Source: Neelides folsomi (Eukaryota; Arthropoda; Collembola; Neelipleona; Neelidae). Taken from it: 64,000 nucleotides of DNA. Below the pieces are notes generated by a model that was not told the DNA's origin, made no database searches, and saw only the letters and a program-made list of their open reading frames with translations. Made by a program: the position numbers and the translations under genes. The stretch lies in contig JAQGBZ010000163.1 in NCBI GenBank assembly GCA_034687125.1, positions 1-64,000 on the forward strand. The letters run 5' to 3'. Shown here piece by piece: positions 1 to 55,129 of this stretch; position 1 is the stretch's first letter, and every line of letters starts with the position of its first letter.

Positions 1-1800
1 GAAATTTGGAAACATCTAATTGGTCTGTGGGTTAGGGGAACGCCCAAGGGGTGGATTTAGCGGATGGCTTGGATAGGATAATATAAAATATTTACTCCTC
101 TCCGTCACGGGAGTTGAGAATTGGTTCGGCTTTTTACCTTCCCTTTCCTTGGATCGGATTTTCTCAACTCCCATGACTGCGAGGAGTACATACCTACATA
201 TACGATAAATATGACATATTACGTATTGCCCGGTATTTTGAAATAGAAATAATACAAAAATAGTTAAATGTTATCTAGTTTTATGTTATTGTAATTTGAC
301 TGACAGATAGAATGTTAATATGTACTTAGGATAATCATTTTAATTGAACAATTTTGATTAATGTATGACATTACTGACAATATGCGATATGTAGGGATAT
401 TTTTAAGATTATTGTATTTGTATATTTGTGTATTTATACATGTTGTATGTAAACCAAAACCACATCATTAGTCACATTACTGAAGGATAATCACACAAAT
501 TCTCAAAAAATAAAATTCCATACTTTACAATTCTGTCGATTATAACCATATTCTAATATGTACTAAAATCTTAATTCTAATGCATAAATATGTTTAGCAT
601 TCTTTAAACTATCAGTACATCGCATTAGTATTAGGCTTAAAGAGTCTATTATTAGAAATTTTACTTCACTTTCTTTAAGATCTTCTAATATTTACTCGAC
701 TACAAGTGCATAATATCTGTATACATATGAAATAGAGAAATGACAAAATAAGCATTTTCAGAGTTTCCCATCAACATCTGCCAAGTATTTTTAGCTTAAG
801 CCGATTCATTAATCATTAGATTTTACGCGAACGCATTGGGCCAATTCTAAAGTTAGAAATTGGTAAATGGCAATAAGAAATGTTGAAAAGGGTTTCTACA
901 ACGTTACAAGTTAAACATACAGATTGCCATCTTCACACACATTCGCAAAAACGGGTTTAAATAAAAGTATGTATATGAATGCATCTATAGATGAAATGTC
1001 TCCCATTGATCCCAACTTTAAAATTTAAAAATATGCACACGTTCGGAGAGATTGGACCAGAAGAGACATTCGCTTTCTCCTCACTCTTCTCTCACATTGA
1101 GAAAATTTCGATCCATCTTAATTTGTTGTGTTAAAGTACATAGAAGTTAAAAAGTAGTTGGACCATTAAAATAATAAATGTAAAATTATTTACATAATTT
1201 ATATATTCATTGCCGACATCGTTCATTATCATTTTAAATCCCATAATTGCATTGTGATTAGTGCGGTTCAATGAATAAATCAAAATTAGTAACAAGATTA
1301 ATAACATTATTCAGTGTTTCATGCATTGTATGTGTAAATTCCCAACGTCGTGTTATTGAACCAGGGATTGCTGATACAATTCGAATAGGTAATAAAGTTT
1401 GTATACCTATTAAATTTACAATCATATGAATATCAATGAATATCAAAGTAATGTACACTATTATAGTTAAACTAATTGTAAGTAGGTACAATTCCATATT
1501 TTATGTTTTTATTTATTATATTCTATTCAGTTTAATAAAATCTTCATATTATTAAGTTTATCTTTGTATGTGTGTGAAGTGTGTCAATTATTTATTTGAT
1601 TCAAATTGTTCATAATGATGTACCTTAAGGTTTACAAATTAACTTTAACAGTTTCGCACCGAAAGTTTTTTGACGAAAGTTTTGGCTTAGGAGCCAAAAG
1701 GCTTTTATTAAAAAAGTTTATGAAGCGGCTACGGTATATCATATATATGATATGATAAGGAAAAATGATACGACAAGTATCATATTTTCATGTCTGACAG
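1..1800. other. AT-rich flank upstream of the kainate receptor
   Basis: I see no coding exon with convincing composition or similarity. The signal-peptide exon of the glutamate receptor should lie here or further left, but I could not identify it. A short inverted repeat at 93-188 is listed separately. A small hairpin (TTTTGGCT/AGCCAAAA) lies near 1681-1701. The short open frames in this stretch look like chance frames in AT-rich DNA. Confidence 0.5.
93..188. repeat. Short imperfect inverted repeat
   Basis: The left arm at 93-120 and the right arm at 161-188 are reverse complements over about 28 bases with roughly four mismatches. The arms begin TACTCCTC and carry GGGAGTTGAGAA. They enclose about 40 bp. 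It could be a tiny foldback element or a chance hairpin remnant; no target duplication is evident. Confidence 0.5.
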
Positions 1801-11473: not shown

Positions 11474-14022
11474 CTTTAATATTCAGACGTATAAATTTTA
11501 GTGAGAGACAAAGCACCATTGAAAATAAATTAAATAAAGATATATAATGCTTATTATTTTATTTGTCTGTCTGTATGTCTGGTTATTTATTTTAGTTTTT
11601 CAATTTCCAATTTTAATTAATTCTTGGCTTAATTAATTTATTCATACCGATTCTGGGAGTTTATCCATCGTTTTCAAAATTTAACCAATTATATTTTTGT
11701 TCTATATTTAAAATTACATTGGATGTATTAGAACTTTAAAATTTTGATGCTAAATATATAATTAAAATTTTAATAATCACAATTGAATTATTGAGGGAAA
11801 TCGAAGTGCATTTTAGGTTTTCATTTTAGTTGCTGGGTTTACTCCATTTTCGCATTTGAGTTGGAGTTCAAAGGAATGTTCTTAAGAGTTTGGGAGGATT
11901 TGCGAAGAGCCGACTGGAACGAGTGCATATCTGCATCTGCACCTGCTACACTCGAACATCGATATCCGCTATCCCTATATCAGGATCGGTTAGGTCGAAA
12001 ATGCGCTTTCTTCACAAAATATATCAATTGAGCATTCAAGAGTTCCACTTGGAATATTTATTATCAGATCCCCTAGTTTTTAGTCAAAGAATATATACAT
12101 CTTGATCTTCAGCTAATCCACCGGATAAAAGCGTAACTAAAAATGAAAAGGTAGATAAAACCCGTTCCATTTATTCCGCAATTATCCGGGTTTTTATTTC
12201 AGTGCATTATGACCGGGTTTATTCAAATTTCATTTTAAATCGAAGAAAATGTTAAGTAATCGGAGTTTAATGACTCTGAATTAATGTACTTGCCTATGGT
12301 CCCATAGAAGAAAAATGGGGCATAAGGGCGGAGGAACGCGAGGAAAATATGTAGAAATAAGAAAATCTCGTGTGGAACCATTAATAGTTGAGGTCCTCTC
12401 TCTCCACATTATCCTAAAAGGCATTCGATTGTGAGTCGAATCTCCTTCCGTTTCAATATCCGCCGAGGCCGCATGAACTCAAAGCGAACCTCCAAGAACA
12501 CAAAGGGGAAAATAAATGGAGGCTGCGAGGTAGGGGTTTAAATGCGTTAGCTAATAGATTTTGAGATGAGAGGCTTTGCAGGTTAAAATCATAAGGAGAG
12601 GTGAGCTCCGACTCAGTCTTGTCCCGAGTTCCCTTACGAGTGGGTGGGTGAGGAGTTGTTGGTGAGAGAGAAGGGAGCCGGTGAACAAGAACACTCATTT
12701 ACATTCGACTCCATATACAGTTAAGCCCGAGTCGATAAGGTATTTCTAAAATGTGAACATTAATTAAACGATTAACCTACAAAGAGACCCAAAGGCCCCG
12801 ATTTCCCTTACTCAATGGAGAAAAAGGGGAGAGAGAGAGAATAACAGGGAAAGGATGGGGGAGATGACGACGAGTCAGTCAAAACGACCACGCTAATCGT
12901 GCCGCATAGAGCAAAAGGAAATTATTTAGGGGAAACTTATTACAGGTAGACCGAATAACCCCGTTGAGATATGACTCCCGAATTACACATGATCTCGTTT
13001 TGAGTTGGAATATGCATATTAATTGCATATTAACTCCCATTGCAGTCCTTTTTAAATAAATTACATTGCGGCATAGGAATCGAAACTTGGATTTATCCTC
13101 CTATATGCTTTCACCATTCTTTCCACTTCTTGCTTTTCTTTCAAGATCAGATAATTTTTCAATTATAAAACTAAATCTTTCAATGAACATTCCAATTCTT
13201 AGTTTTTGTCCAATTTAATTAAACAGTAATTGTTAAAATTTATTTTAATTCTACAAGCCATTAGTAGAAGAAAGTCTGTAAAGTGAAAGGACTATAAATA
13301 CTAATAAAAGTATAACTAAATTAGACATCATTTCAAAAGAAGCGAGTTTAAGTTTAAAGATTTCCATTTTTGGTCAGTTCATAATGTGTCTATTGTTTTG
13401 ATACAAAGGAGATTACAAGTTTAATCTCATAAGAGAAAATTTATCCTTTGCGCAGTTTTGTCTTTTGTACATGAGACCTCATGAGAGAGAGTGTGTGTGA
13501 AAGTTTGTTTTGTATTAGAAAACTTGGGGATAGTTCCAGTTTGTTAAAGTATTTATCCACCCAGTTATATTAGTCCCTGCATAATATAAACCAAGTCGAT
13601 GCATATAGAGAGGACCAAAGTAGCGTAAACTGGCCAAACGGCAGTGCCCCCGAAAACCAAACCCAGAGACATGGTTTAAATTCTCCTCCTCTTCTGTGTC
13701 ATAGCCATTGGGGAAAAATGAATACAAAGAAGGAATCGACCGTGGAGGTTCTCTGGACGTAATAATAATGGTAATGTGGAATGCCCAGCTTCCTCCTTCC
13801 CCGCATCTCTAAGTACATTCATACATTTGTTGTAAACATTCCCCTATGAATTTATATATATTTGAAGGAATCCCTATACGAAGGAAATTGTGGGTCCTTT
13901 TCAGTCTTTTGGCTCTGGCTGGGCGAGTGAGTCCGGGTAGCAGTAGCGCGTTGGTTCCTTCTCCGCTCCTTCATCACAAAATGTGTTCGCGTGTTCGCTA
14001 GCGGCCTTCACAGTTCCCTGCC
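11474..14022. other. Divergent intergenic region / probable Cav2 5' leader
   Basis: Lies between the F-box gene (leftward) and the calcium channel (rightward), so it should carry both promoters and non-coding first exons. Composition becomes less AT-rich towards the right: 12300-12900 and 13500-14022 contain purine-rich and GC-richer tracts, including a GA run near 12830. The 100 bp before the channel ATG are the most GC-rich and are probably 5' untranslated leader. I find no supported coding exon; the missing F-box first exon may be at the left side. Confidence 0.45.
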
Positions 14023-17000
14023 ATGGGTCGGCGGCGGAAGAAGCAGAAGAAGGGAGATCCACCGCCGCCGCTCCCCTCGTCCCTCTTCATATTCACCGAA
14101 GATACGAAAGTAAGGCGGTTGATGCGCTTCATCTCAGAATGGCCATGGTTTGAAGCAGCGATTCTCATTACAATCGTCGCAAACTGCATCGTCCTTGCCC
14201 TCGAGGAGCATCTGCCGAATGGGGATAAAGCACGTTTGGCAAAGAAGCTTGTAAGTTGATCATATCTCACCCCATATCTTTAATGTATTACCCAAGTATT
14301 ACCTATACTAACAAGAGCTAAGAAAGTTTGAACTGCTAAATGTGAGTTTAATATGTATTTAGGATAGGAATTATATAATAGGAATTATATTTACTTAGGT
14401 GGTTGGTGGGATTTGTCTATGTGCGATTTCTTAGATATTATGTCGATTACTTTATATTTATTATGACATAGCTAAGAATCTATGTACGAACACGTCTATT
14501 TTCGCCCTTTTTTGGAGCGATAAAAAGGTCCACTTCCTCCACGCGACTTAATTCTTACATAATCATTCTATCTCACTTCCTTGAATAAAAATGGGCTGAC
14601 GAGTCTGGGAGATATAGTTTGAGATTTGTAATATGTATTTATGTATACCTAGGTTCATATTTTGTTCGACATAGGAATATGGAACGGAGATGTTTGATTG
14701 TATTAATAATATATTTTGTTTGTTTTCGGTGTGTATAGGAAGCGACAGAGCCATACTTCCTCGCCATATTTACAGTCGAATGCCTTGTGAAGGTTAGTAA
14801 AAATGAAAAATTCAAGTATTATCGATTCCGTCTTTAAAAGGTTTTGAGATTCCATAACTGATAACATTCTTACACAATGATCTTGGTCCATTTTCCTCTT
14901 TTACTGTTTCCCTATTCATTTCATGTAATCATTTGTGAAAATGTTTTGTGAGGGGGCGAAAAGATCTAAATTATTTATTCCCTTTTCCCCGATTGGATTT
15001 CACAAAAGTATTTTAAGTAGCCGGTGTAGTTTGAGTATGAATGTCATCACGTTGAACTTCTCCACAAGTTTTCCCAATTTTCCTTTTAAACCCCCAATTT
15101 CCCCCAACTATGGGAGATGATCCTATAAAAGGGAAGTGAAAGGAAAATGAAGTTGGACTTTTCATTGCAGATATTAGCCCAAGGATTTTTTGCTCATCAC
15201 GGGAGCTACTTGCAGGTACGCTAACTCACTTTCTCGACTAGATTTATACGCCTTTTAATATGTAGAGGCTCCATACCATTTATTTTTGCAATGAACTACG
15301 TTTTCTGAGTGGGTAAGTAGTCCTGGTACAAGAATGTATTTGAGTACAACCTCCAGCTCATCCCTACATCTTCATATATATAGAATAATTTATTTATGTA
15401 TTTGGTATATCTCTCAGCCAAGTGGGATATTATTTATATAAAGTAGACCGAGGTGTAACAGTCAAGTGCACGTTTGGGCATTCGATACAACTATATAGTT
15501 TAACCCCTAGTTTAACTACCTCTATATTATAAATATAAAATCTATATTAATACATTGAAGATATTTGATATTAAAACTTGGATTCTTTTGGTATATCTGT
15601 ACAGAACATATGGAATTTCATGGACTTCGTCGTCGTCTGTGTTGGGTAAGGGAGCTTTGGGTTCTTCTTTCCTCTCGAACATAAAAGGCCGCCGTTGCGT
15701 AAATGAGTATTGCCACTGCAACATATTGCAGTCATCCAAAATTTCTTTTCTCAACCCGAGTCGACACGGACACAAAAGCCGAGCTACACATTTCACTCCA
15801 CTAACTTACATTTCTCCCCGGTCTCGCGGATGCTCATTTCCTCCCTCATTTGTATGTATTTAGGTACGTTTCCCTCTTTGCGTCGGGGGATCTCGGGGTA
15901 AAGCTGAAGAACTTGAAGGCCATCCGTGTCCTTCGTCCTCTCAAGCTCGTCTCCAAGAGTCCAAGTACGAATTTGTCTCTTAAATAAAACCCTCCAGCCA
16001 CATGGTTGAAAATCCGCATTACTTTCCCTCGCTTTCCTCCCTTCCTCTGGCCGGGATGGGGTGTGAAATGGATGAGAGGATTAAGAGATTTCCTCCTTGT
16101 CTTCTTTGGCAAATGTAGGTCTGAATGTGGTGCTGGGATCAATTCTCAAAGCGATGGCTCCTCTGCTTCAAATAGGTCTTCTCGTTCTCTTCGCCGTCGT
16201 TATTTTCGCCATCATTGGGCTCGAGTTCTACTGCGGAATTTTTCATAGGACTTGCTATAGCCTCGACAACTTGGGTTCGTGATTTTCCTTCTTATGGACT
16301 TTTCTCATAATTTCCTAAGTGAGGAAACAAAGGAAGACTGGAGTATGATTTTATAGATGAGATCGTAAATGATGGAGAATATCCCGTCCCGTGCACTCCA
16401 GATTCCAAAGAAGAGGCGTCAATGGGTTCTTATGTCTGCGATCCGGAAGTTTCCATTTGTCTGAACAAATGGGTTGGCCCAACCTATGGGATCACTTCTT
16501 TTGACAACATTGGATTTGCTATGCTCACTGTCTTTCAATGCATTACGATGGAAGGATGGACCGCTGTCATGTACTGGGTACATTACAATCATATTTTTTA
16601 ATATTTAACTACCATATATGTATTACAGCATAAGCTTTTATATCATTATATGAGTATTTTGTACAAATTCTACACTTTTGTACTTTTACGTAATTGGTAG
16701 TTTGTCTTGTACTGAAATCTGCAATAATTTAGTAAGGGCGTGTGGCATTTATTAAATCTTTATAAAAATATAAATTTTATGCTTGAGCTTTAAATATTTC
16801 ACACTTTCCTTCCAATAAGTCTCTTTTTACGTTTGCAGACGAATGATGCTCTGGGGAATGCGTTTAATTGGCTGTACTTCATTCCTCTTATTATCATCGG
16901 CTCATTTTTTATGCTCAATCTCGTCCTGGGAGTATTATCAGGGTAAGTGGGGAATAAACTTTTATTGTCTTCACCCTCCCTTGGTCTTATACATAGTTTA

Positions 17001-20000
17001 GAAGATAGATATTATCTCTAAATGAACAATTACTTGGTGAAAGCGGATGAAATCTCGCTCCCATTTATTCTTATTAACAAAAGGCTCAAATTTATTGTAA
17101 TTTACTTTATAATATAAAGATATTATCTTATAGAAATATTCAATTGAATTATTGAATTTATTGAATTAACTAATTTGGCCAACCACTTGATAAATAATTT
17201 CTATGTGTGGATAAGACACCATCGGGAGTCTCTTATTGATTTAGTTATTAAAGCCGGGCCATATTATAAGTTTGAACATCCTTTAGCAGATAGTGGGATG
17301 TCGATGGCAATATGATTAATATTTTATGGCCCTCAATTAAGGGCAATGAATTGTTATGCGATATAATGATAGTTGGCGTCAATTTGGAACTCACTAGGGA
17401 ATTTGGGAGGGAGCGGTTGAAAGTGGAGAATCGGCAGGCATTCATCAAATTGCGGAATAAAGAGAAATTGGAGCGCGACATGAATGGCTATCTAGAATGG
17501 ATTTGCCAAGCCGAAGATGTAATTCTCGCCGAGGAGAAGACAACGGAGGAGGAGAAGGAAAGGATTGCAAAAATAAGGAAGAAAGTAATTGCCAAAGGAC
17601 TCCTCATTCCAGGAAAGAGCTTAGAACCCGAAAAAGAGGTTGAGGCAGAGCCGGAGAAAGCCGAATTAAGCGCCTTTTGGAAGGCCGAGAGAACTCTCCG
17701 ATTCGGTATACGGCATATGGTCAAAACTCAATGGTTCTATTGGCTCGTCATTATCCTCGTCTTCCTCAACACTGCCTGTGTCTCCATTGAACACTACAAC
17801 CAACCAGAGTGGCTCACTAATTTTAATCGTAATTTTAAAAAATCCATTTTATTCATCACTTAAAAACAGTTAAACTTTATTTAATCTACATATATTCGAT
17901 ATCTATTCATCTATCAGTATTCGCATTATCTTAAATGGATCTTTAAATTGTTATTTTCCAGATTACGCAGAAATGTTCTTCCTTGGCCTATTTATTTTCG
18001 AAGGAAGCATCAAAGTGTATGCTATGGGACCAAGTGTCTATTTCTCATCGACCTTCAACCGCTTCGACACGATCGTGATCTCGGGGTCAATATTCGAAAT
18101 TGTTTATTCCCGGTACAAACCTGGGGCTTCTTTTGGTCTCTCCGTCCTTCGCGCTCTCCGACTCCTGAGGATCTTCAAAGTGACGAAGTACTGGTGCTCC
18201 CTCCGGAACCTCGTCGTTTCCATTTTGGACTCCATGAAGCCGATCGTTTCTCTCCTGGTCCTCATCTTCCTCTTTTCCCTCACTTTCGCACTCCTGGGGA
18301 TGCAGCTTTTTGGCGGGTCGTTCAATTTGCCTGAAGGACGAGCTCCGACTCATTTCGACAACTTCCCAATTGCCCTCATCACAGTCTTCCAAATTTTGAC
18401 TGGGGAGGATTGGAACGAGATCATGTACCAAGGGATTGGGGCCAAAGGTGGAATCGAGCAAGGGATGATCTACTCCGGCTATTTCATATTCCTCACTTTA
18501 TTTGGAAACTACACGCTTCTCAATGTTTTCTTGGCTATCGCTTGTGACAATTTGGCCAATGCCCAAGAACTCACAGCTGCCGAAGAAGCGGAAAAAGCAG
18601 CAGAAGAAGAGGTTTCATTTACAATATTACAAATTATATTGTACAATTTTTTATTAGTCAGATCACACTTGAAGAGAGATGTATAATAAGAGAAGTATGG
18701 TACATCTTCTTTTATAAGATGTACCATACATATTTATACATTTATAAGAGAAGAAATGAAAAAAGTCTTTGTTTGATATAGAGGAAACAAAAAGAGTTGG
18801 AAGCTCTTACGGGTGTCAAGGAAGAACCGAAGGAAGAGCATAAAAAAGAAGCAACGCCACCACCAGAAGAAGAAGAAGCCGGGCCACCGGCCATTCTCCC
18901 ATACTCTTCCATGTTTTGTCTTGCTCCCGATAATTGCATTAGGGTTGGGGCGCATTGGCTCGTAAACAGTCCTTACTTCGACCCGTTCATTACTTGTGTG
19001 ATTGCTTTGAGCAGTGCAGCTCTCGCCTCCGAAGATCCAATTGTTGAGCATTCAGACTGGAACACGTTTTTGAACAAAATTGATTATGCTTTTACTGCCG
19101 TTTTCGCCACTGAGATGTTTCTCAAAGTAAGATCTCATCTTTATTTGATATATCCAAAAGGTAAATGATTCATGGTGAGAATTTGAAAATTCCTCCTCCT
19201 TTGAGTTATCAGATATTCAATTAATATTTTACAATTTTCATTTAAGATGTTTTAAATAACAACATACAACACGACCATGCAACCTACATTATGGAGTGAT
19301 AATTTAATGATTTTATACATTTTAGATAATTGACCTTGGAGTTGTTTTTCATCCTGGAGCATATTGCAGAGACTTTTGGAACATTTTGGATACTGTTGTC
19401 GTTGTTTGTGCCATTGTTGCTCCCATTTTAACTTCGTAAGAACTTAATAATGGAACAAATTATAAAGCAATGTTTTATTGAACAGTTGAGCTAAAACTTT
19501 ATTAAAACTTTAACGACCTTGCATTTTTTATAGGATTCTTACTGGAGAGGATGGAAAGGCGACGAATAAGAACGCCATGAATATAATAAATAATATCAAA
19601 TCTCTCAAGGTTCTTCGAGTTCTCCGCCCATTGAAGACGATAAAGAGAGTGCCAAAACTAAAGGCCGTCTTCGACTGTGTGATCATTTCTTTGAAGAACG
19701 TTGGGAACATCATGGTCGTTTACATTCTGTTCCAGTTCATCTTTGCCGTAGTGGGAGTCCAGCTCTACAATGGGAAATTTTGGTATTGCACTGATGATGG
19801 TAAGAACACTCAAGAGGACTGTCAAGGCTTCTACTTTCGCGGTGGTGCTAATGGACCCCCTGAAGTCATTGAAAGAGAATGGCTCAAACAAGACTTTCAC
19901 TATGATAACGTCATGGCCGCTATGCTCACCTTATTTGTTGTTCAAACTGGTGAACTTTGGCCATTGTGAGAAACTTACATTATTTATACACAAATTAAAT

Positions 20001-23000
20001 ACATAATACTTAATTATTAACATTATATAAATATTAAATAATATGAATATAATGTTATTATATCATGTTCATTAGTTTAAAGTTGTAAAATATTAAAGCC
20101 TTTGTTTTGTAAAGGATTCTACAAAATTCAATGGCGACCACGGAAGAAAATCTCGGGCCTATAATGCACAATCGGATCGACATGGCCATTTTCTACGTTG
20201 TGTATTTTATCGTTTTCCCTTTCTTTTTCGTCAACATTTTCGTGGCTCTGGTGATCACGACGTTCCAGGAGCAAGGAGACGCCGAGCTTGGTGATGGAGA
20301 ATTGGATAAAAATCAGGTAGAGCAGAGCCCTTTTTAAACGAGCCACTCAGGGTCAATGGCAAATTCAATATTACCAATATAAATAACATAAAAAATGAGG
20401 AAGAGGATTGAAGGAGCCATCCTTTTAGAAATCCTGCATTGACTTTGCAATCGCCGCCAAGCCTATACACCTCTACCGACCAAAGAATAAGAACTCGTTG
20501 AAATTCAAGCTTTGGAAGTTAATTACATGGCCGGTTTATGAGAATTTCATTCTGGCGCTCATCGTCTTCAACACTGTTCTCCTCATGGCTAAATATTATC
20601 AGCGTAATTACTTAAATTACAAGAAATCTTAACCAAATTACATTATAATTAGAAATTTATACTCGAACGTATATAAGTATTACAGTGTTCTATAATAGTT
20701 CTATCTTAATTGTATGTAGCTGCTGATGATTTAATAATTATTGTAGTGTGTGATTTCTTATTTAGTGTTAAATTACATTTAGTATAAATAAAATACAATT
20801 TTAGACAATATTGTACATAGCAATAATGTAGTGGTAAAATTGCATGATGATATAAATTTATAAATCTATTTCATTGTGTATACAACTCATGCACAGATTG
20901 GATGTGTAGCTAATATATCATTGGACTTCTTTTAGCTCTAGGGATAAAAGCATAATCTTATCGACTCGGTTTTTCTTTCATTTTTTCTCTTTTTTAGATC
21001 CCTTAGCTTATGAAAATGTCCTTTCTACATTCAACCTCGTCTTGACTTCTCTATTCACTGTTGAGTGCATCCTCAAAATAAATGGACTCGGGCCAAAAGT
21101 GAGTAAAGTGATATGCAGAAATATATAATATATATCTAAAAACCATTTAGAATATTTACATATACGACTAACTTCATGGTTGGTTCAACTTCCTCTCTAC
21201 TTTCTCTCATCCTTTTTACTCTATATCTTTCTCTCACAGCAATTTTTCAAAGACTCGTGGAACGTTTTTGACCTTATTACCGTTCTTGGAAGCATCATTG
21301 ATGTCTTTGTTACTAAATATGAAGTATGGGAATTTATCAATAAAATCTTTTACGCTCAGTAAAACATTCAGAAAAAGGAGTCGTTAAATGGAACTTTTAC
21401 TTCTTTGATTTATTAGATTAAATTCGTCAATTTGGCCTTTCTTCGTTTGTTCCGAGCCGCTCGGCTCATAAAGTTGCTGAGGAGGGGGAGGAACATACGA
21501 ACTTTGTTATATACTTTTGTACAATCTTTTAAAGCTCTACCTTACGTCTGCCTTCTCATCTCATTACTTTTCTTCATTTATGCAATTATTGGGATGCAAG
21601 TAAGGAAAATTATTAAATAATTGTATAATACTATTTTATTCATTTTTGGAATGTAGAGGAAATTAGTGAACTATTAATTTCCAATTAAAAATCTTATTAT
21701 ATTTAATTTTATTTTAGTTATTCGGAAGTTTGGAAATTGACATTCCTGGTTCATCCATGACGCGCCACAACAATTTTCGTCATATCCTCCAAGGACTTAT
21801 GCTTCTTTTTAGGTAAATCGACCCAATATGGTCATTTCATGTAGAAAATTAAAAAGTTGTATTTTGGAATTTACTAATATGAAATGGAATGACTAACCAA
21901 AACTTTATTTCTTTATGAAATAAGGTGCATCTTCTACTAAACATTATTAATTTTCATTCCGCTTGCTCGTTACTCAAAAGCTCAACCTCTTGCAGTGAGT
22001 TAATGCTGTCAATAAATGCTTTCATTGCACAATTACTTATAAATAATATAATTGATATATTTATACCATTTTAAAATTATTTTTAATTATAAGATTTATC
22101 CAACTCACTTGAAATTAAAAATTTACACCATTATGTAATTAGACAACTGTGTATGCATAAACCATATACAGATATATTAACTCACCGATTGTTGAACGAC
22201 TTTAAATCATTACTTTCCCTTATGTATTGATATTATGTAGTTAGATTAAAATATTTAATATCTAACAATACTAATAATTTTAGATTCATTTGTAAAATTT
22301 CAGATTTAGTTAAATCTATTTATTTATAAGTGCTTTTGCTAGAACTAAATAAAAAACCTTTGTATATTAAATTGGTATAATAATTTGAGTCGGGATGTTA
22401 AAAAGGTGCGCGACAGGAGAGTCATGGCCTTCCATTATGCTTTCCTGTCTTAAAGGCCAACCCTGTGACCCAAAGTCAGTTCTCGATAAAGATGGAACAG
22501 TCACAGATAAAGTTTGCGGCTCAAATGCTGCAATTGGATATTTTGTCTCGTTCGTCTTTTTCTGCTCATTTCTCGTAAGTCTCACAATTCAAACATTCCA
22601 ATTTTCCAATACATTATTCAATATGAAATATTTATGTGTATTTAATATTAAGTTATAATATCCTCTTAAATCAAAGGAAAATGAATTGATTTAATGTTTA
22701 TGTAAAATAATCTTTATTTTAGATGCTCAATTTGTTCGTCGCTGTCATTATGGACAATTTTGATTATTTGACTCGAGATTCATCAATTCTCGGAGCCCAT
22801 CATTTACAAGAATTTGCTCCTGCATGGGCTGAATATGATCCAGGAGCGACGTATGATAACATAAAAAATATTGCTTTTAAATTGTACGAGTTGTAGGTAA
22901 TTGATAAAATTAGTACGAATGCAAATAGCGATTCGAATCTTTGATCCATAGTCAGTAGTGTGAAATATTTAATGAAATTTTTCAAACAATTGATTTGGAT

Positions 23001-24717
23001 TGAGTGTTAATAACGGTTTCGTGACGCAGGGGCTTAATGCACCATACAGATATGTGTAATATGCTGAGGAACATTGAGCCGCCGTTAGGTTTCGGGAATA
23101 AATGCCCCACTCGATTAGCCTACCACCGACTCATCCGAATGAACATGCCGGTGAATGCGGAAGGACAAGTGGAATTCACCTGCACGCTCTTTGCCCTCAT
23201 TCGAGACAATTTGGGGATCAAATATCGGGCATCGGAAGAGATGAATCAGGCCGATAAAGAACTGAGAGAAATGATCTGCACCGTTTGGCCCTATCAGGCC
23301 GAAAAGCTTTTGGACGTCCTTGTGCCAATGGCCAACACCAAAGACGACATGTCTGTCGGTAAAATATACGCAGGGCTCTTGATTCTAGAGAGCTGGCGCA
23401 ACACGCGGTTCCATACCACGGAGCCGAAAGGGCTGGCCATCCTCATGGACATCATCAAGCAGGAAGATGAGACCAAGGCGTTGTTGGATGAGGAAGAGGC
23501 CAAGTTGCTTGAGCTGTTGGAAGACGAAGAGAAACCCCCAATCCCATCCCATGTAACCACGATCGAGAAGATTAAAATAGGAATTAATGGCCATTCAAAC
23601 CGACAAGGTAAATCTAACTTAATCAGCTTCAAGGTAATTTGAAACCTACTAAAACACAATTAAAATTTATATACAACTAATATTATACATATCAATATTC
23701 GCATTAATCATTTTGGGTATTTTTCCGCTAAAACGGCATAATAATAATACAATATGTATGGTATTAACTCCATTGATTTCCAAGTAGAGAGAGACCGTAG
23801 TGTGACTCACGTTACTAAAATGATTAATGAATGTCTCTATATTTAATATGAAGTATGACAATTATGATCAAGAAATATTATACTGTGGAATTAATGTGTG
23901 TAATATGTGTGGAAGTAATAATGCAATTTACATGCTATTATCTTTGTAAATAATAATGTAAGTTGTTAACTTAAATTGGAATTTTCCGACGTAGTTTTGT
24001 GGTAGTAGTAGCTCCGATTCTTAATCTCTCTATACTTATGTTCTCTCCCTCCGACGTCCTTTTGTCTTTTGTCTATTAGCCTCTCCCCTCTCTTTGGTTT
24101 TGATTGTGTTTGGGCCAGTGGACAAAGTACTTGTAATGAGGGTTCACCTTTTTGTAGTTGGGTTCGAGGAGAGGATCAAAGAAGAGTATTTTGGTCCGAG
24201 CTCCTCGGCCGAAGAGGCTGTCCCGCTCCTCAACTACCAAGACGAAAACTACAATAATGAGAGAGAGGAGATGAGAGAAAAGGAGTATCTCCGAATGCTG
24301 AAAAGGAGAGGAGTAGACCGGGGTGAATCGAACGAGGAGGTTCCTCCGATTTTCCGAACCCCGGTGAGTGGGCAGATGACGATGTTGCCAACGCGGAGGT
24401 CCGGAGGACGGATTCTACCTCCGACCCCGCCCCACCCTTCCACACTCCCTGACATCCTGACCCAGGAGGGGAGGGCGAGCAGAAGCCGGAACAGCCGACT
24501 CCTCCCGCTCGCGCCACGGTTCCAAGACGCCACCCGCTTCGCTCCGCCACCGACCATCTTCCCCCATGTGAGATCGGCCGCACCGGGATACTCGTCGGAC
24601 TCGACCTACGGGGACCCGCTCCATCCCTCGCTCGACCGATGGAAGGCGAGGACGGCCGTGTTTCGCAACGCGTCCCGTCTCCACTTCAACCACTCAGACG
24701 ACGACGACTGGTGCTGA
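14023..24717 (+). CDS. cac: Voltage-gated calcium channel alpha-1, Cav2 (cacophony) type
   Basis: Presynaptic Cav2 pore subunit. Exons: 14023-14250, 14739-14792, 15171-15215, 15605-15645, 15864-15964, 16119-16274, 16357-16577, 16839-16942, 17398-17828, 17962-18611, 18782-19126, 19326-19435, 19534-19965, 20115-20316, 20429-20603, 20998-21098, 21240-21323, 21417-21599, 21718-21812, 22406-22574, 22723-22850, 23030-23607, 24158-24717; one continuous frame, about 1730 aa. Four 6-TM domains with S4 motifs ([55 protein letters not shown]) and four filter glutamates: TMEGW, TGEDW, TGELW, TGESW. The I-II linker has the beta-binding motif NGYLEWI; after domain IV come an EF-like region, [11 protein letters not shown] (IQ-like), [14 protein letters not shown] and a C-terminal DDDDWC. 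The II-III loop is short, without synprint, as in invertebrates. Start is in good context (gccATGg). Odd: Leu in the domain III filter and a degenerate beta-binding motif (see findings). Confidence 0.96.
18695..18729. repeat. Perfect 14-bp hairpin in the Cav2 intron
   Basis: Left arm 18695-18708 (GTATGGTACATCTT) and right arm 18716-18729 are exact reverse complements around a 7-base loop. It lies in the 170-bp intron between the domain II and II-III loop exons and occupies a fifth of that intron. It could affect splicing or be a chance palindrome. Confidence 0.6.
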
Positions 24718-28327: not shown

Positions 28328-29771
28328 TCAAAAATCAATATCAGGCAAATAACCAGAATAAAAATCAGGACCATAATCTGCAACATTATCGATGTCATTA
28401 TCATCCGAATCCGACTTAATAGGGTTTTCTTGAGATATTTGAATGCTTTTCTCAAGAGCATCGCAAGTTTGTGTTGAGCATTCTTTAGTTTCCAATCCAG
28501 AATTGCCCAGCGTATTTTTGTCCACTGTCCCGTTCGCGACAATTTGCAAGCGGACGATCTGATGAGCCGCTTGGCTATTTTAAAAATGTTACATTCAATG
28601 AGATTAATCCACCATTCAATCATCGAAAAGTCTTTGTAAGTGCATAATATGTCAATAAGAATTATTTAAATACCGCAACTCTTCGTTCAAAGCCCATTTT
28701 GCTAGGTTGCGCTTTTCAAAATTTTCAATCTCTCCTTCTTTTTCCTTTTCGTTATTAGCTTTTTGGACCATTTGTTTTTTCAAATCCTCGTTTTCTTTAT
28801 TGGCTTCTCGCAGCTCCTTATCCTTCAAAATTGCGATTTCAGTGAGCTTTGACTTCTGGTGCTTCAAATCCTTTATTACATTTGTTTTGTCTTTTTCGAA
28901 GGACTCATTTGCCTTTTTTTGTGAAGAAACTCTTAATTCTTTATATTTAATCGACAGTTGTGAGAACTCGTATCTAATAGTCAGATAAACAATTAAGTGA
29001 ATATATTAAAGATATTAATGACTAGTGTCACCCACACCCACTACACTGGTGATGTACATTATTTTGATGCATTCATCAGTATTTAGATATTCACAACTAC
29101 ATAACCAAACGAAGTTGGTTGCATTTTTAATAGAATACCTGAGAATTTCAATATAAAGCGATTTTTCTTCAATCAAATCATCATTCTTTTGTGCATCCAC
29201 GGAAAGTTGATCAAAATCTCTTTGCTTCTTCTCCAATTCAATTTGAGTGTTTTTAGCTGCTTGGAGTTTATCGTCAATATTTTCCGCATCATCATCTCCA
29301 CAAAAGAAAATTATCCGATTTTGGAGCAAGGCTATATCCCGTGCGCATTTTGGGCACTTTGGACTTAAAAGGGTCTTAATTAGGTAATTTCATCAATAAA
29401 AAATATTTAAATTCAATAATTGAATTATCTTAGTATTCAAATATTTAATGCATTCTACCATACATATGATTGAGTTGTTGAATGATCGACTCATTAAGAC
29501 ACGCATCATGATACACGTGTCCACATTCAGATGCAACAATTTTAGAATCTTGGCCATCAGTTCCTTGAACTAGACAAATACAAAAAATGTTATATTACTG
29601 AACCTTGACTTTACATGATAGAAGGTTGGATTTGTCAATATTCACAATGATGCTTACCTAAACAAATAATCTCTAAATATACATAATATATTCAAAATTG
29701 AAAAATATTTAGCCGATACCTTTTACAGGTGTGGAGAGTAAGTCCAAACACACACTGCATACGAATGCCAT
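28328..29771 (-). CDS. RING-finger coiled-coil protein (TRAIP/NOPO-like), copy A
   Basis: Probable E3 ubiquitin ligase, 309 aa. Exons: 29771-29720, 29569-29464, 29363-29139, 28973-28674, 28574-28328; phases agree. N-terminal RING: MAFVCSVCLDLLSTPV, then ECGHVYHDACL, then CPKCARDIA, giving C-C, C-H-H-C, C-C ligands. After it comes NRIIFFCGDD and a long Lys/Glu-rich coiled coil (exons 3-4), then a conserved block (QIVANGTVDKNTLG, CSTQTCDALEKS) and an acidic tail ending YLPDIDF. RING followed directly by coiled coil resembles TRAIP and Drosophila NOPO, but the rest is too diverged for orthology. It faces the amidohydrolase tail to tail; both were partly duplicated at 30190-33990. Confidence 0.75.
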
Positions 29772-32324: not shown

Positions 32325-33531
32325 TATGTTGGTAGTATAATTTATGTCAATAAAAATTATTTAAATACCTCAACTCTTCGTTCAAACCGGACAAGGCTCG
32401 GTTATGCCTTTTTTCCAATTTTTCAATCTCTTCTTCCTGTTCCTTTGCATTGTTATCCTTTTTGGCAATTTGTTTTTTCAAATCCTCATTTTCTTTTTTA
32501 GTTTCTCTGAGCTCTTTTTTCTTCAAAATTACCATTTCAGTGAGATTTGCCTTCTGGTGCTTCAAATCATTTATCAGTTCTGACTCCTTTTTGTCTTTTT
32601 CCAAGGACTGATTTCCCTTTTCTTTTGAAGAAACCCTTAACTTTTCATGTTCGATAGTAAGTTGTGTCAACTCGTATCTTAAATTCAGATAAAAAATATG
32701 TTGAATATGCTCGATTTTGGCCACCCACATTCACTGTAGATGTATTGTGATGCATTCAGTATTTTAAAATTCATAATTATATAATTAAATGTATAAACAT
32801 AAAATAAAAAGTTACCAATTATGAATTCTTTGTAATATGCTAAATTATTACCTGAGAATTTCAATATAAAGAGATTTTTCTTCAATTAAATCATCCTTGT
32901 TTTGTACATTCGCGAAAAGTTGAGCCATATCCCTTTGCACCATATCCAATTCATTTTGAGTGTTTTTAGCTTCTTTGAGTTTCTCGTCAATATTTTCAGT
33001 CTCATTATCTCCACAAAAGAAAATTATCCGATTTTTGTTCACGGCTATATCTCGAGCGCACTTTGGACACCTTGGACTAAAATAAAAATAGTCTTTATTA
33101 GGTAATTTCACTGATTTGATAGAGAAATTAATAAAACATGTATTTTAATTTTATCATTGAATAAATTATCATAAATAATAATATAATACATGAGATTGTG
33201 TTGTTGATTGATAGACTGGTTGAGACAAGCATCATGATACACATGTCCACATTCAGCTGCAACTATTTTAGAATCTTGGCCATCAGTTCCTTGAACTAGA
33301 CAAATTTATAATTAAATTCTATTATCAGATCATTAAGCATGTATTATTAATTTTAATAGGATACGATGTAATAAAGCTAACAATACAGGTAAGTACACAA
33401 TTAGGCATAAATAAATAATGACATTTAACTTTATTAAACATAGTATATTTTACAACATCGAAAAAAAGAGATATTACTTTTTACAGGTGTAGAAAGAAAG
33501 TCCAGACATACACTGCATACGAATGCCATAA

Positions 33532-41409: not shown

Positions 41410-44192
41410 TCATGTCATTTGAACTCCGAGACTTTGCCTGACATGTTCATAAACAGCGTAAGATATTGACACAGCTGGGGCTACTTTTAAGAAATTGGGA
41501 AGAATCCCACGGTAGAGACCTCGAAGTCCTTCGCTCCTCACGATCTCTTTGAAAATCCACAACATTCGTTGATCTCTTCTTTGAGTATCGGCTTGGAGCT
41601 TTGTCCTAACAAGGGCAAGGGGATAAGACGCAATCTGACCGCAACTTGAGCTGATCGTCCCGCACGACAGGAGGATAAGGGTATTTGGCTCTGAATATCG
41701 CTTCGTGTAAAATTTCTTCAAAGTCTCATATATTGCAAGATCGATCCCGGCATAAGGAAGGATCCCTAATAGATTTGGGACATATCCTCGGTAGAACACT
41801 CGGTAGCCTTCATTGAGGTACATTGTTTTTATCATATGGACGATCGAAGCAAATTCCCCTAAAATTACAAAAATTAAAATTAAATTAAATTAAATACATT
41901 TTCTTAATTAATACTCTATTATAAAAATGACATTATTAAGTTCTTTTACTAATATATTTAATTTTTGGATCTAACAATTCTGCTTTCCACTTGTAATTAA
42001 AATATTTCTAATATTTCTAATATTATAAATATTATAATTAGATCTTACCAGTTTTCCTTAATGCTAATCTTGTCTTGATTACTTCCATAGGATAAATTAA
42101 ACTTTGACTAAAGGCCCCAGCGAAACTTCCAGCTAAGAATCTTTCAGACATTCTCAGTTCTTTTTCTTTAGAATTCCGTTTTAAAAATCTCTTTCCGTAT
42201 TCATAAGCCATGAATTTTAGGGCGGATTCAGGGGCAATTTTAAGGACATTCATGCCATTTCCTCTCCAAAGTGAAGGAACACCTCCTTCCCGTAACAAAT
42301 GTTGAAGGCAACTCTTGATTGACAATGGTGTCTTTTTACTTGAATGAACCTATACAAATGTCAAAATTAAACACATTTTTAAATATAACAAGGAAGAGTA
42401 TAATTGAATGACAATTTAATTAATTTTTTATAATTTTATGCTAAATACATAATTAACATATTTTATAAACAAACCTGTAGAAAAACTTTAATTCTATCCA
42501 ATGGTGCTGTCGAAGTTCTTGAAACTGCTCCAGCCACACCACCAGCTACTAAATGTCTCCACCAAGCTCCAGAGTCAAATTCCTTACTTGTGAAATCGTC
42601 AGGAACCGAAATGTCTTCTCCCATATCCAAATACTAAATAAAAAATATATCCAGTATTGTAAAAATATTTTAATTATAGAATTTAAATTAATCAATTAGT
42701 TAAAATTAATTAAATACCGTGGCGTGTCTCCAAAATAGAACAACATCGGGAAGTTCGATGGAAGGACTTAAAATTAAGTAATCTCGCCAATCTTCCCATG
42801 ATATTTCCAAAGAGTTCCCATCTGACATCCTGAAAAAAATAACAATAATTATTAAACATCTTTAATAAAATAGTATTGTAACAATATTTTACAAAATAAT
42901 AATAGGAAAACAGATATGACAAAAATACCCGTCATGTAATAAAATGAATGGAAACTGGTATTTTGTAAATAAATAATATTTTGGTTAAAAATTACAGTAG
43001 CGATAAAGTTGGAGTTAAACAGATGACCGAGCCTCTTGGAAGTTCAAACTAGTATGTTCCAAGGATAAATCATTTTCCAATAAGGTTTGGTCAAAGAAAG
43101 TATTATGATAATGCCATAATTCAATAATTATCCACTTGTTATTTATCTCAATATTAAACTATATAATAAATCCTGAATCGCTGCATATGGCAGAACTAAT
43201 AGATTCTAAGCTGCATTATGCCGACTTCCCATTTAATTAATATTACCACGCGCACAAAAATTGCATGTAATTTAAATCTCCTATCGATTCTACTTACTTC
43301 TTACATCCCTGAGCTAATGTCTGCAAAATTGCGAATTTGAATTGTCAGGATCAAGAACAAGCTTGCGAGATTTAACAATTTATATCCATATACTAATACA
43401 ACTATTACTCCACTTGTTCGATGTTAACTTTATATGGGTTATGAACCGTGAAATGATACACGCCTTCTCTATTTATAGTAAAAGACCTTTTAGATAATGG
43501 AGAGGAACTTAAAGTACAAGGTCAATAGCTCGTTTCTAAAAGATTTCCATTTAAGCACATACTGCATATTAATTATACAACTACAGTAGTTAGTACATAA
43601 TGAACTGCTGTCTATATGATAAGTAGTAATTTATGTATAAATGGAGATATCCAATAAAATAAAAGATAAAAATCCAAAATAAAAGGGAAATAAATAATAA
43701 TGTAAATTATGTAAATTTAATTTGAATACTTTTCAATGAGACTTAAAATTTCTTTCTCCGAGAGCCGAAAACCGGATTTGTCGAGGGCGTCTTTGAGTTC
43801 CTCCCGGTCGAGCTTCCCGTCCTTGTTCCGGTCAAGTCTGTTAAAAACGTGGCGAAGCCGCTCGACCCTCGTGTGAGCAAAGTGGAGGAACTCGTCGAAG
43901 GTGATTTCCCCATTTGAATTCGCGTCGACCCTTTCCATCAGCCGCTGAATTAAATTTAGTCCCATGGTTAGACTTATTTTTAGCCCTTGGCATATTGTGT
44001 GCCGAAAAGTTTATTTAATTCGGATTATGTAAGAAAATCCCTTACTTTAGCCACACAATTCTCGTTGGATGGATCGAAGCCCTTGGCTGCAACCTCGTCG
44101 TTGAGGTCGGAAAGGTTGATGACACCGGAGTTTGACTTGTCAAGTTTGTTAAAAAGATCTTCGAGGATCGTAATTGTGTTGTCCTCTGTCAT
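41410..44192 (-). CDS. SCaMC: Calcium-binding mitochondrial carrier SCaMC (SLC25A23/24/25 type)
   Basis: Inner-membrane ATP-Mg/phosphate exchanger controlled by cytosolic/intermembrane calcium. Exons: 44192-44046, 43944-43730, 42829-42718, 42633-42475, 42349-42049, 41858-41410; phases agree, 460 aa, the usual family length. N-terminal EF-hands: loop 1 [12 protein letters not shown], loop 2 [12 protein letters not shown], loop 3 [12 protein letters not shown] are complete; loop 4 ([14 protein letters not shown]) is degenerate, as commonly seen. Three carrier repeats follow with signatures PLDRIK, PMEVIK and PLALVR, plus [20 protein letters not shown], the family hallmark in repeat 1. The start ATG opens the first EF-hand exon ([14 protein letters not shown]); no targeting peptide is needed in this family. 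A well-conserved housekeeping gene with nothing odd seen. Confidence 0.96.
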
Positions 44193-49239: not shown

Positions 49240-50078
49240 ATGAAGGTAGGGGTTGTTGGGAAATGTTTAACAGTCTGTTTGGTCCTATTCATTTGCCTAT
49301 CTGGCCTATCCCTCGTTATGGGAAGTGAGAAGGCAGCAGAACGGAAAAATCCTCACACGTTCTTTTTTCCATCAGCAAAGGAAAATGCACGAGACAAAAG
49401 AGGAATTCATTTGATAAGAGTCAAGAGACAACACACAGGGGGATGTGAGTTCAATTCATTTAACTTTAATACAATTTTAACATTTTTCCTAATACAATTT
49501 TTGCTATTTGTCTTGCTTAGTCGATGAATACAATGGAGAAGATCTTGGCTACGGGTATGGATATGGAGGAGCCTCTGGACATGGATATGACGATTACTGT
49601 TTTAATTGGTATTTTCACTAAATAAAGCATAACTAATATAAGACAATTAAGAATATGTGAAAATAATATGTATAAGAGTGGTTTTATACAAGTTTGGTAT
49701 TTTTACAGCGCTCATTGCAACGGATGCGGACATTTGCGTAAGTGATTTTACAAACTCAATTTTCAGTAAAGTGTCGAGTTAAATTGGTTTTCTGTACTAA
49801 CCGTGTGTGGTCATAACGGATGCAAAAAAACTATCTTTATGCGCTGCATAAATTGGTAGACAATTTCACAATTTATTGCCGATATACTGATACAATATTA
49901 ATGAAACAAAAATGCTTTTTATCTCCTAATCCTTCAGTACCTGTTGCTAATTTTTTAACATAGTTTTTAATGTTTTAATCAAAAAAATTGTCTAGTTTTT
50001 TTGGACTTAACAATTTTAAAAATTGAATTTTCAGCAAATGGACATAATGGACATTCCAGAGTTTCCGGTTATTATTAA
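49240..50078 (+). CDS. Secreted prepropeptide with dibasic sites and CX2CX2CX2C block
   Basis: Exons 49240-49444, 49521-49608, 49709-49737, 50035-50078; phases agree, 121 aa. Residues 1-28 form a strong signal peptide (LTVCLVLFICLSGLSLVMG). A pro-segment runs to Lys-Arg 53-54, followed by heptapeptide GIHLIRV (55-61) and a second Lys-Arg 62-63. The mature C-terminal part starts with Gln64 (could become pyroglutamate): QHTGGFDEYNGEDLG, then YGYGYGG, then YDDYCFNCAHCNGCGHL with Cys at 95, 98, 101, 104, and a tail NGHNGHSRVSGYY. Five His surround the cysteines, so metal binding or two disulphides are possible. It could be a neuropeptide, antimicrobial or cuticular precursor. I recognise no family. 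The 29-base third exon makes it easy to miss in automatic annotation. Confidence 0.75.
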
Positions 50079-51422: not shown

Positions 51423-54400
51423 TTACTGAGCAAAGTCGTGGTGATTGTAGTCGATCACCGTACTTCCATCTTCATCTTCATAAACCTTGTTGGTACTCGG
51501 GAATTGGAAAAGCCGAGAGGTCTCCAAATTTAAATCCTGAGAATCATCGTCAGATGAAGATGACATGTCAATGCCAACATAATCTCCATTCTCCTTTGGA
51601 GGTATTAAAGGATCAGCCTTAAAACAATTATTAATTTCTACCCTCAAATTGTGCAAAACACTATTTGAAAAAAAATCAACCTTTCTTTCCGAATAGTTGG
51701 TCATGATTGTACGAAGGGTCTCATTTTCACAATGACGTTCCACTTTTGCTTGTCCATTTTTCCTTGGTTTAACTCTCTCTGAGTGATTGCTATTAGATGA
51801 TGCAATTCCGGCAAAACTCAACGACTGCAAAGAATTTACATCGAAATTTGCTATTTGAGTGAGATTCGGTAGAGTTTTCACAAATCCATTGGAATTCATT
51901 TCTTTCATTTTCTGCTTATGGTCAATCCATTTATCTTGGAAATCAATTGGCTTCTCGGGGACGATTGGAAGCTCGGAAAACAATTCTTGTTCATCATTAT
52001 AGTGCAAATCATCATTTAAGGGAGATGGTGTTAATTGCGGTGTTTGCCATCGTCCTTCGCTATTATTCTGAAGCTGCCCTTCACTACTGTAACTTTCATT
52101 CAACTGACGAGAATGAGAAGTTTCGGCCCTGCGGTGTTGATCATTTTCATTTCTTCTTTCGTACAGGTTTGAATTTTCAATTTCTGAGTGTCCGTCATGG
52201 AATTTGCTCCTTTCTAATTTTCGTTGTTCGATCAATCTCCGCGCATCGTGATATGAATTGCTGGAATGAACAGTTATTTGTCCTGGTTCCTTCCAATGAG
52301 GGTCCTTGAAACGACTAGAGGACTTTTCTCGTTTACTTGATCTCCTTGAATAATGTGGCGATTCAGCGTTGGAATGAGATGGAGATCGAGTCCAATTGTC
52401 CCTTGCTCGGTAGCGAGCCCAAGTATTTCGGGAGCTTCTTCGATACATTAGTCTTTCAAAAGAAGATGACCGAGATCGTGAACGACGATGATGCGACCGA
52501 GATCGCGAACGATCATGATGTGACCGCGATCGGGATCGAGATTGAGAACGGCTAATATCACGAGACCTATGATTACGTGAATGAGATCTTGAGAAACGGT
52601 TCTTATTTCTTGGATGGCGCAATGTACTGACCACATTTTCATTTTCAGGGGAACAAGAACGACTATGGCTAGAGCTTGCATATCCTCTCTTTCGCCTTAA
52701 GGCCGATCCTGGGAATATTGGGCGTCCTCGTCCTGGCAAGCTTGGTTTATTATTATGGGGAAATAATCTTCGACTTCTGTTATGCCAAAAAGTGTTGATG
52801 AAACCCCGCAATCGAACAAAAAAGGGAGGTCTTCCTGGTCTTTGTGCACTTGGTTTTTCATATAAATTGCATTTGTCGAAAAGTCCCTTGAAATCATAAT
52901 AACGTTTATCTTTAGCTGCTGTGAAGATCCACAAAAATGAACGAGGGGTGGAATTCACGAAAGAATTTCGTCCTCTATTAGGATCAAAAATCGAATGGTT
53001 CTTGTTAACAAATAAAATTCCGGAAGGTTGGACTTGGATTCCTCCACAAGGAAGGTCGTAAACCATCTCGTTATCAGACACCACTTTAAGCCTAACAATC
53101 AAATATCAAAATAAAATTTGTCTTTACATGACGAGTTATAAATTACATAGGTACATGTTTTACATTATTTTAATAAATATTTCTTACTCTTTGAGTATTT
53201 TTTCTGGGACCTTTTCAACTGGGACAGGTTCATTAATTCGAATCTGCTCTGGAGGTAATAAGTCGGAATTAAATTGTTTAAAAAAGTTTCTCATTTTCAT
53301 TTGTCTAAAAATTATAATATGTAAATGTATTAAATTATATAACATGTTACATTATGTTATCACAAGAAACATAAATATTTGAGAAATGTTGACAATTTCA
53401 AACTTACAACCTAATTAATTAAAACACTCAAATGATTATTAATGTTAATGAATAATCAACGAAAACATTATTTTCACCTTGTGTCAAAGTCAAGTTCGAA
53501 CATTGAAATTTTTTCTAAGAAGATAACATCGATCAAATAGAGTGTAGTTCGATGAGAAGGAAATTCTCTTCGAAGTTCTGCCAAAAATATTGATTCATTA
53601 GGAAGCCGAATGGAAGCTTTATCCACATTCTTCCAAACAGGTCCAAACTTGTGTGTCAATGTAAGCAACTGACATGGCAGATCCATTCCATTTCCTAAAG
53701 AGACAAAAATTGGAAAATTAAACATTAAATTAAATTCATAATCATTAATCGTGATTAAATAATGTATGGGTTATTTACCAACAATATAACAAGGAGATAA
53801 CACGTCAAAGAAACCTCGTTCGCAGATCATAAACGCAACCCAATTATCATCGGTTATTGGAAGTATAAGCTTATTCTCATGAAGACATTCATAGGCCTTC
53901 GCCTTCGCCTCCACCATTCTGATCAATCTCTTAAAGTTCAAATCCATCGTCTGTTTTATCTTTGTTGTGGACTCTTTTGAGTCAATCTTCTTTGCTTTTT
54001 TGTCCTCTAATTCTCCTTCTTCTCTTTTTGAAGTTTCTGGTTTTTCATTCGAGGATGAAGAAACATTGGGATTCATTATTGGTGGAATTTCGGTGTTGTT
54101 TATATTCTCGGGAAGTTGAGGAACAGGAGAGAAAATGTTTTTAAATTTTGATTGCGATAAACTAAGAGGAGCTTTCTGAGCTGGAGATTCAATTAAAACT
54201 TCGTTGGTCGTTTTTTCAGTGTTTGAGGTTTTGCTCAATTTGTCGTCTGCATCGTTTTCGGACTGCTCCTCATTTTCCTCTATGTTGTTTTCTTCAGATT
54301 CGGATAAATTTCCTTCTCCCTCAATTTGAGATTTCTCTTGGTCAATGTCGCACATATGAGAAGGAAGCGAAACATCATCATATAGGAAGTTTTCATTTCC

Positions 54401-55129
54401 AGACTCTTCTGTATCAAGGATTTCGCCCTCTTCAGCTGATGGAAAATTTTCATCGTCTGTATTTATAAAGTCACCATCATAATATTCTTCTTGTTCTCCT
54501 TCTCCCTCATCTCCTTCATTTTCCTCCTGTTCATTATTATCTTTATTTTGAGCCTCTTCTTCAGGACAATCTTGAGATTTGCAATCTTCCCTTTTAACAT
54601 CAAGATGCTGCATAAAGTAATCTGTAGATAGTTCTATTTGGTATTCATCATACTCTTCTCTTTCCTCTCTGATCTTTACATATTCGGGAGAGTTGGCAGA
54701 CCCTACATTGACAACGTTTGGGTTCATTTCTAAAAAATACAGGTAATTTTAGAGTTAATTGAGAAAAAACATTTAAAACGTTTAGAAAATCAAATGTATT
54801 AGATATTATACAAAACGGTCTATTATAGTTATATAATATAATTTTTGTTAAAAAATATATAAGTATTTTACAGGACCTTTAAATAGTTAATGACACTTTG
54901 AAATCTCAAAACATTAGATAATTATAACTAATAAATAAGTCATAATGAATAATGATTAGTATTTTATACTTCATTCCATTTGAGAAGACGATTGAGTTTA
55001 AAATAATAGTATTTCAATTTTTGATTTCCTTAACCAATGGGGACTTATGACTCATAATAATTATAAATATTTTAATCTCCTACTGGAATCAGATTACTTA
55101 CTTGGCAAGGTCGTTTCCTTTCCTTTCAT
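51423..55129 (-). CDS. Large acidic/SR-rich protein, probably nuclear
   Basis: Exons 55129-55102, 54729-53779, 53694-53478, 53304-53188, 53091-51423 join in frame to 993 aa. The first exon (MKGKETTLP) may be optional, because Met at 54727 is also a good start (MNPNVVNVGS). Order: highly acidic Glu/Asp region about 30-200, then a globular region about 270-560 (LILPITDDNWVAFMICER, FFDVLSPCYIVG, TTLYLIDVIFLEKISMFEL, DLPCGGIQVQPSGILFVN, PRSFLWIFTAAKDKRYYDF), then an RS domain about 580-660 dense in Arg-Ser/Ser-Arg, then a low-complexity C-terminus with SSSSDDDSQDLN. RS repeats with acidic tracts suggest a nuclear RNA-processing or chromatin factor. I do not recognise the globular region; a Tudor-like fold is a weak thought only. 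Confidence 0.75.

Follow-up and report, generated by a model that had tools for sequence, protein, structure and literature searches.

The locus and a four-exon gene model

The window analysed here is the whole 64-kb stretch, which is taken from contig C163 (positions 1-64000); the assembly comprises 840 contigs and 75,104,828 bases. Read from the DNA, four exons of 205, 88, 29 and 44 nt (the last including the stop codon) would encode a product of 121 aa that ends at position 50078; the introns between them, 76, 100 and 297 nt long, all have GT-AG borders. An earlier sequence-only reading had proposed four phase-matched exons with a 29-base microexon, and these do join in frame to 121 aa; the elements it had listed, a signal-like start, Lys-Arg sites, GIHLIRV, a C-terminal peptide starting with Gln (Gln64) and four cysteines, are likewise present in the DNA. 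The translation of the joined exons combines a signal-like start (MKVGVVGKCLTVCLVLFICLSGLSLVMG, in the frame open from 49240) with two Lys-Arg sites and CFNCAHCNGCGH, and its C-terminal end is YCFNCAHCNGCGHLPNGHNGHSRVSGYY. The features of the locus are as follows.

49240-49444 (+): exon 1, which opens with the signal-like start (about residues 1-28) and continues with a basic propeptide and then RDKR, GIHLIRV, RVKR and the start of the predicted mature peptide, QHTGG
49390-49401 (+): R-X-K-R site 1, RDKR, residues 51-54 (from the sequence; coordinates derived from the exon 1 start)
49417-49428 (+): R-X-K-R site 2, RVKR, residues 60-63, followed by Gln64 (from the sequence; coordinates derived from the exon 1 start)
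49521-49608 (+): exon 2, with the end of codon 69, DEYNGEDLGYGYGYGGASGHGYDDYCFN and the Cys98 codon up to its second base
49709-49737 (+): exon 3, a 29-nt microexon, completing Cys98 and continuing with AHCNGCGHL and one base
50035-50078 (+): exon 4, with PNGHNGHSRVSGYY and the stop codon TAA
50147-50152 (+): AATAAA, a possible polyadenylation signal 69 bases 3' of the stop

By a simple criterion, a basic start followed by a hydrophobic core (maximum hydropathy over 12-mers, 3.14), the N-terminus has the feature of a signal peptide, and the cleavage site near residue 28 was placed by eye. The cysteines of the precursor stand at residues 95, 98, 101 and 104, forming CX2CX2CX2C.

Elsewhere in the window, frames resembling an ionotropic glutamate receptor were recognized by eye at 1674-7427 (+), and a multi-exon voltage-gated calcium channel alpha-1 gene, recognized partly by eye and with 13 introns placed, occupies 14002-23639 (+); Pfam finds IQ and GPHH domains in its frame at 23025-23639 and an Ion_trans match below the cut-off in 17294-17860. 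The reverse strand carries a tandem gene pair (28655-29389 and 32350-33144) in which a zinc-finger-like start, CPKCARDI, and a coiled-coil part were seen by eye; the one frame scanned, 32851-33144, gave weak Pfam matches below the cut-off. A mitochondrial carrier gene, possibly calcium-dependent, lies at 41413-44010 (-), with Mito_carr in 41413-41889 and, by eye, an EF-hand-like frame beside it at 43720-44010 (-). At 51426-54748 (-), an RS-rich frame of 560 aa overlaps a 27-base tandem repeat (52468-52539) and is adjoined by an acidic frame, and Pfam, searched to E 1, gave nothing for either frame. A tRNA scan with the bacterial code and an Rfam search at gathering scores gave 0 matches each in the 64 kb.

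In the wider genome, the odorant-receptor family PF02949 has at least three matches above the cut-off. The mitochondrial contig, C742 (15,157 bases, first 10,000 read), has the order I-Q-M-ND2-W-C-Y-COX1-L-COX2-K-D-ATP6-COX3-G-ND3, where COX1 was named by PF00115 and the other protein genes by eye, and where ARAGORN reported 18 tRNAs, one of them unnamed. This arthropod layout places a tRNA-Leu(taa) between COX1 and COX2, an order that we take to be the pancrustacean ground pattern and that suggests a pancrustacean. A chelicerate origin, which genome size and GC had brought up, was dropped on account of this tRNA.

Coding signal and competing splice forms

Codon use was scored with a table trained on 3143 codons from other frames of the window, some of these frames being long ORFs that match no family. 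The log-odds is +22.8 for the frame of the model, and -1.6 and -25.2 for the two others (5 stops each, with a penalty of 6 per stop); the model frame reaches z = 3.8 against 121-codon non-coding segments with stops ignored; the 28 codons of exon 2 score +12.0 in frame, and exon 3 is too short for the test. The window contains 362 stop-to-stop ORFs of 50 aa or more; of these, at least one RX[KR]R site occurs in 24 and at least two in 7, and the combination of a signal-like start with two such sites is found once, in the frame of the GIHLIRV precursor. That the locus is no gene at all, being chance open frames in AT-rich DNA, would agree with the homologue and paralogue searches described below, which were empty within the scope covered. 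However, the codon z, the uniqueness of the frame among the 362 ORFs and the AATAAA downstream of the stop argue against this, and we consider it very improbable. On sequence grounds a small arthropod gene for a secreted precursor looks real, while its exact splicing and its role are predicted.

The local yardstick for splicing consisted of the 13 introns of the calcium-channel gene, placed to keep the reading of the conserved protein unbroken; at 5 of these junctions more than one site qualified and one was chosen, and the donors show a loose consensus past GT. All three donors and all three acceptors of the model fall inside the leave-one-out range of these introns. For introns 1-3, fractions of 0.944, 0.781 and 0.996 of background GTs score no higher than the model donors, and 0.953, 0.965 and 0.799 of background AGs score no higher than the acceptors. 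Expressed as percentiles, the exon 1 donor (GAT/GTGAGT) is at the 94th, the exon 3 donor (GTAAGT) at the 99.6th, the exon 3 acceptor at the 97th (0.965) and the exon 4 acceptor at the 80th. The codon use and splice sites of the four-exon model are consistent with this genome.

The four-exon model is one reading of several: rival splice sites weigh against it, and the codon test speaks for it. The in-frame donor at 49325 scores 6.18 as compared to 5.74 for the model donor, and its use would remove residues 29-68 together with both Lys-Arg sites. The in-frame donor at 49555 scores 8.33 as compared to 3.73 for 49609, and its use would remove YGYGGASGHGYDDYCFNC and two cysteines; the acceptor ending at 50059 scores 5.47 as compared to 2.69 for the model site and would swap out the His-rich end. 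With each of the three rivals, translation stays in frame, either into the following exon or into an open end. The alternative donors thus form two in-frame pairs, 49325/49445, 120 bases apart, and 49555/49609, 54 bases apart, and alternative splicing of the intervening stretches (49325-49444 and 49555-49608, +) is possible, by which the cleavage sites, or the Tyr/Gly run and two cysteines, would be kept or lost.

These scores are also what would be expected if the gene were real and mostly spliced in another way, with the Lys-Arg sites, the four-cysteine array or the His-rich end absent from most of the product. Among the 338 splice paths enumerated, 88 contain both Lys-Arg sites and 35 contain CX2CX2CX2C; on splice score alone the model ranks 42nd, the top path lacks the Lys-Arg sites and the best path retaining them is second, and read-through of exon 2 to a stop after NWYFH is a further possibility. 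However, the splice matrix was built on 13 introns, and the stretches at stake resemble coding DNA, the codon scores of residues 29-68 and 81-98 being equalled or beaten by 182 and 179 of 20000 non-coding segments, respectively. With the codon score added, the model rises to 2nd of the 338 paths, and the path in 1st place differs from it in exon 4 only, keeping both Lys-Arg sites and the four cysteines. The array is also rare in null tails, in which exon 2 was fixed and the rest was swapped for DNA taken as non-coding, some of which may contain exons: any CX2CX2CX2C could be spliced in 13 of 4000 tails, CX2CX2C in 366 of 4000, and CX2CX2CX2C followed by at least four His in 0 of 4000. The ten null-tail examples shown trace to two places, one of them probably coding and zinc-finger-like. 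Splicing of this other kind appears quite improbable to us. Because the contested pieces are coding-like and the first-ranked path keeps both, the Lys-Arg sites and the four-cysteine array are likely to be part of the predicted product, whereas the His-rich C-terminal end is less sure.

Searches for relatives and predicted processing

With the 121-aa product or its C-terminal 58 aa as query, the 75-Mb genome yielded no paralogue; the sensitivity of this search is limited by the short, split exons. A match on contig C79 (E 0.25) was rejected as a paralogue; judged by eye, it lies in a frame with stops, in TTG-repeat DNA that resembles an antisense Gln-rich gene. Pfam gave nothing above the cut-off for the 121-aa product, the only match being DUF5056 (residues 9-27, E 0.2), and NCBIfam gave 0 families for the 121-mer and nothing significant for the 58-mer (best E 0.24). 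PHROGs gave no significant match (best E 0.32), PDB chains gave none at E up to 10, and among viral contigs 7 stretches fit a pattern, with no relative among them. Literature searches found no mention of GIHLIRV in 5.39 million papers, which carries little weight, and none of a secreted CX2CX2CX2C or CXXCXXCXXC. Judged against Pfam, NCBIfam, PHROGs, PDB and its own genome, the precursor is an orphan, and this status is provisional because these collections do not cover arthropod proteomes.

With donor 49445, and not 49325, the product keeps the two Lys-Arg sites; each of them has an Arg in the P4 position, and R-X-K-R is the furin-type consensus. The precursor thus has, at residues 51-54 and 60-63, the R-X-K/R-R cleavage sites of furin-processed secreted precursors, a term for a kind and not for a homologous family. 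Four contigs of the genome carry P_proprotein domains, at 5 places in all, which suggests that convertases of the furin class are probably encoded. Residues 29-63 have a computed pI of 11.0, and the predicted 58-aa peptide from Gln64 has a pI of 5.44, with 15 Gly, 8 Tyr, 6 His and 4 Cys and a computed mass of about 6209 Da (reduced, before pyroGlu). GIHLIRV is present in a single copy and ends in V before KR, with no C-terminal Gly for amidation. The proposal of a dibasic precursor holds up in that the sequence gives good support to the prediction of a secreted precursor that is processed. GIHLIRV, which had been singled out in that proposal, reads best as a linker, and the acidic Gly/Tyr/His/Cys peptide of 58 aa is the likelier main product.

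Possible roles of the 58-aa peptide

The explanation we favour, tentatively, is that the gene encodes an extracellular peptide, matured by furin and rich in Gly, Tyr, His and Cys, that acts in cross-linking or metal binding within a secreted matrix. The frame, the sites, the composition and the convertase-type domains encoded in the genome are its observed basis. From this gene, found once in the genome, a secreted pre-pro-peptide would be made; after removal of the signal, a furin-type convertase would cut after RDKR and RVKR, freeing a 26-aa propeptide, GIHLIRV(KR) as a short linker, and the mature peptide of 58 aa. The Gln that starts the mature peptide may cyclise. The basic propeptide would hold the peptide inactive until cleavage. 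Outside the cell, the 8 Tyr, the 6 His and the compact group of 4 Cys would then serve for cross-linking or metal binding, and a cuticle-like matrix or one secreted by a gland is the most likely site. Expression, splicing, cleavage, location and cross-linking are predicted steps. The gene model, the coding bias, the splice fit, an array beyond chance and the Arg at P4 speak for this explanation. Against the matrix peptide stand the lack of a significant Pfam match, a Gly run that is short for a cuticle protein, and the higher-scoring rival splice site that each of the Lys-Arg sites, the four-cysteine array and the His-rich end faces.

Comparison with cuticular proteins gives likeness of composition, not homology. 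His-rich cuticular proteins were cross-linked in vitro via catechol derivatives and laccase (PMC8062583), and His adducts of hard cuticle, Gly-rich CPG proteins with GXGX or GGXG repeats and CPCFC proteins with a repeated C-X5-C are described (PMC12426002). Like the CPG and His-rich proteins so described, the product is Gly- and His-rich and, by prediction, secreted, with His open to quinone cross-links (PMC8062583, PMC12426002). Unlike them, the precursor has furin-type sites; as to the Gly repeats of CPG, a single short GYGYGYGG run is seen by eye. Its cysteines, at CX2C steps (95, 98, 101, 104), differ from the C-X5-C reported for CPCFC. Pfam found no chitin-binding domain in the product, and since it gave no significant match, the R&R chitin-binding consensus of CPR proteins is not seen either.

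The composition would also suit a host-defence peptide, matured by a furin-type enzyme, that starves or poisons microbes through binding of Cu or Zn by Cys and His, and we regard this as a possible, lesser alternative. PMC6509419 describes microplusin as a tick copper chelator with six conserved Cys and a His-rich C-terminus. Like microplusin and hebraein as presented there, the precursor would give a small secreted peptide that contains Cys and has His in its C-terminal region, and it shares the signal peptide, the cysteines and the His-rich C-terminal portion (PMC6509419). Unlike the six-Cys peptides, it has 4 Cys within 10 residues in one CX2C array, 6 dispersed His, two furin-type sites and no family, Pfam or PDB match. 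A precedent for furin-cut effector precursors in insects is Drosophila Baramicin A, which is split at RXRR furin sites into several peptides (PMC8423362). The precursor here resembles it in its furin-type sites, where cleavage is predicted, but has no repeats, in contrast to the tandem IM10-like peptides of Baramicin, and has a Cys array. With a pI of 5.44 the 58-mer is acidic, unlike a typical cationic antimicrobial.

A precursor of a peptide hormone or neuropeptide, the ligand being either GIHLIRV or the pyroGlu 58-mer, would also account for the signal-like start, the 7-mer between two Lys-Arg sites and the C-terminal peptide starting with Gln. Arthropod neuropeptide and Gly/Tyr-rich NPLP-type precursors have a signal peptide, dibasic sites and a Gly/Tyr-rich stretch, all of which recur here. 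Unlike them, the precursor has no repeated peptide, no amidation Gly before a dibasic site and a Cys array; repetition and amidation are not universal among neuropeptides. Pfam gave no neuropeptide family match. Because the 7-mer occurs once, without an amidation Gly and with R-X-K-R on both flanks, a hormone is weakly supported, and we consider it unlikely. Where the sequence-only reading had offered a hormone, an antimicrobial or a metal-binding peptide, metal-binding or antimicrobial action is possible and the hormone has receded; in comparison with it, a role in cross-linking or metal binding seems more likely.

As the defining features tested are absent, the precursor is placed in none of the CPR, CPCFC, microplusin or amidated or repeated neuropeptide groups; nor, on one short GYGYGYGG run, is it assigned to CPG. 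A bolder idea, which we hold to be improbable, is that the product may be a secreted peptide confined to its lineage, whose compact CX2CX2CX2C/His block would form a new type of extracellular metal- or cross-link-forming module, freed by furin-type cleavage and switched by the alternative donors 49325/49445 and 49555/49609. If the gene is expressed as modelled, an orphan secreted peptide with an unusual four-cysteine/histidine block would join the furin-matured peptides of arthropods; otherwise, it would be one more of many lineage-restricted small secreted proteins. Such genes are easily overlooked because of their microexons and short frames.
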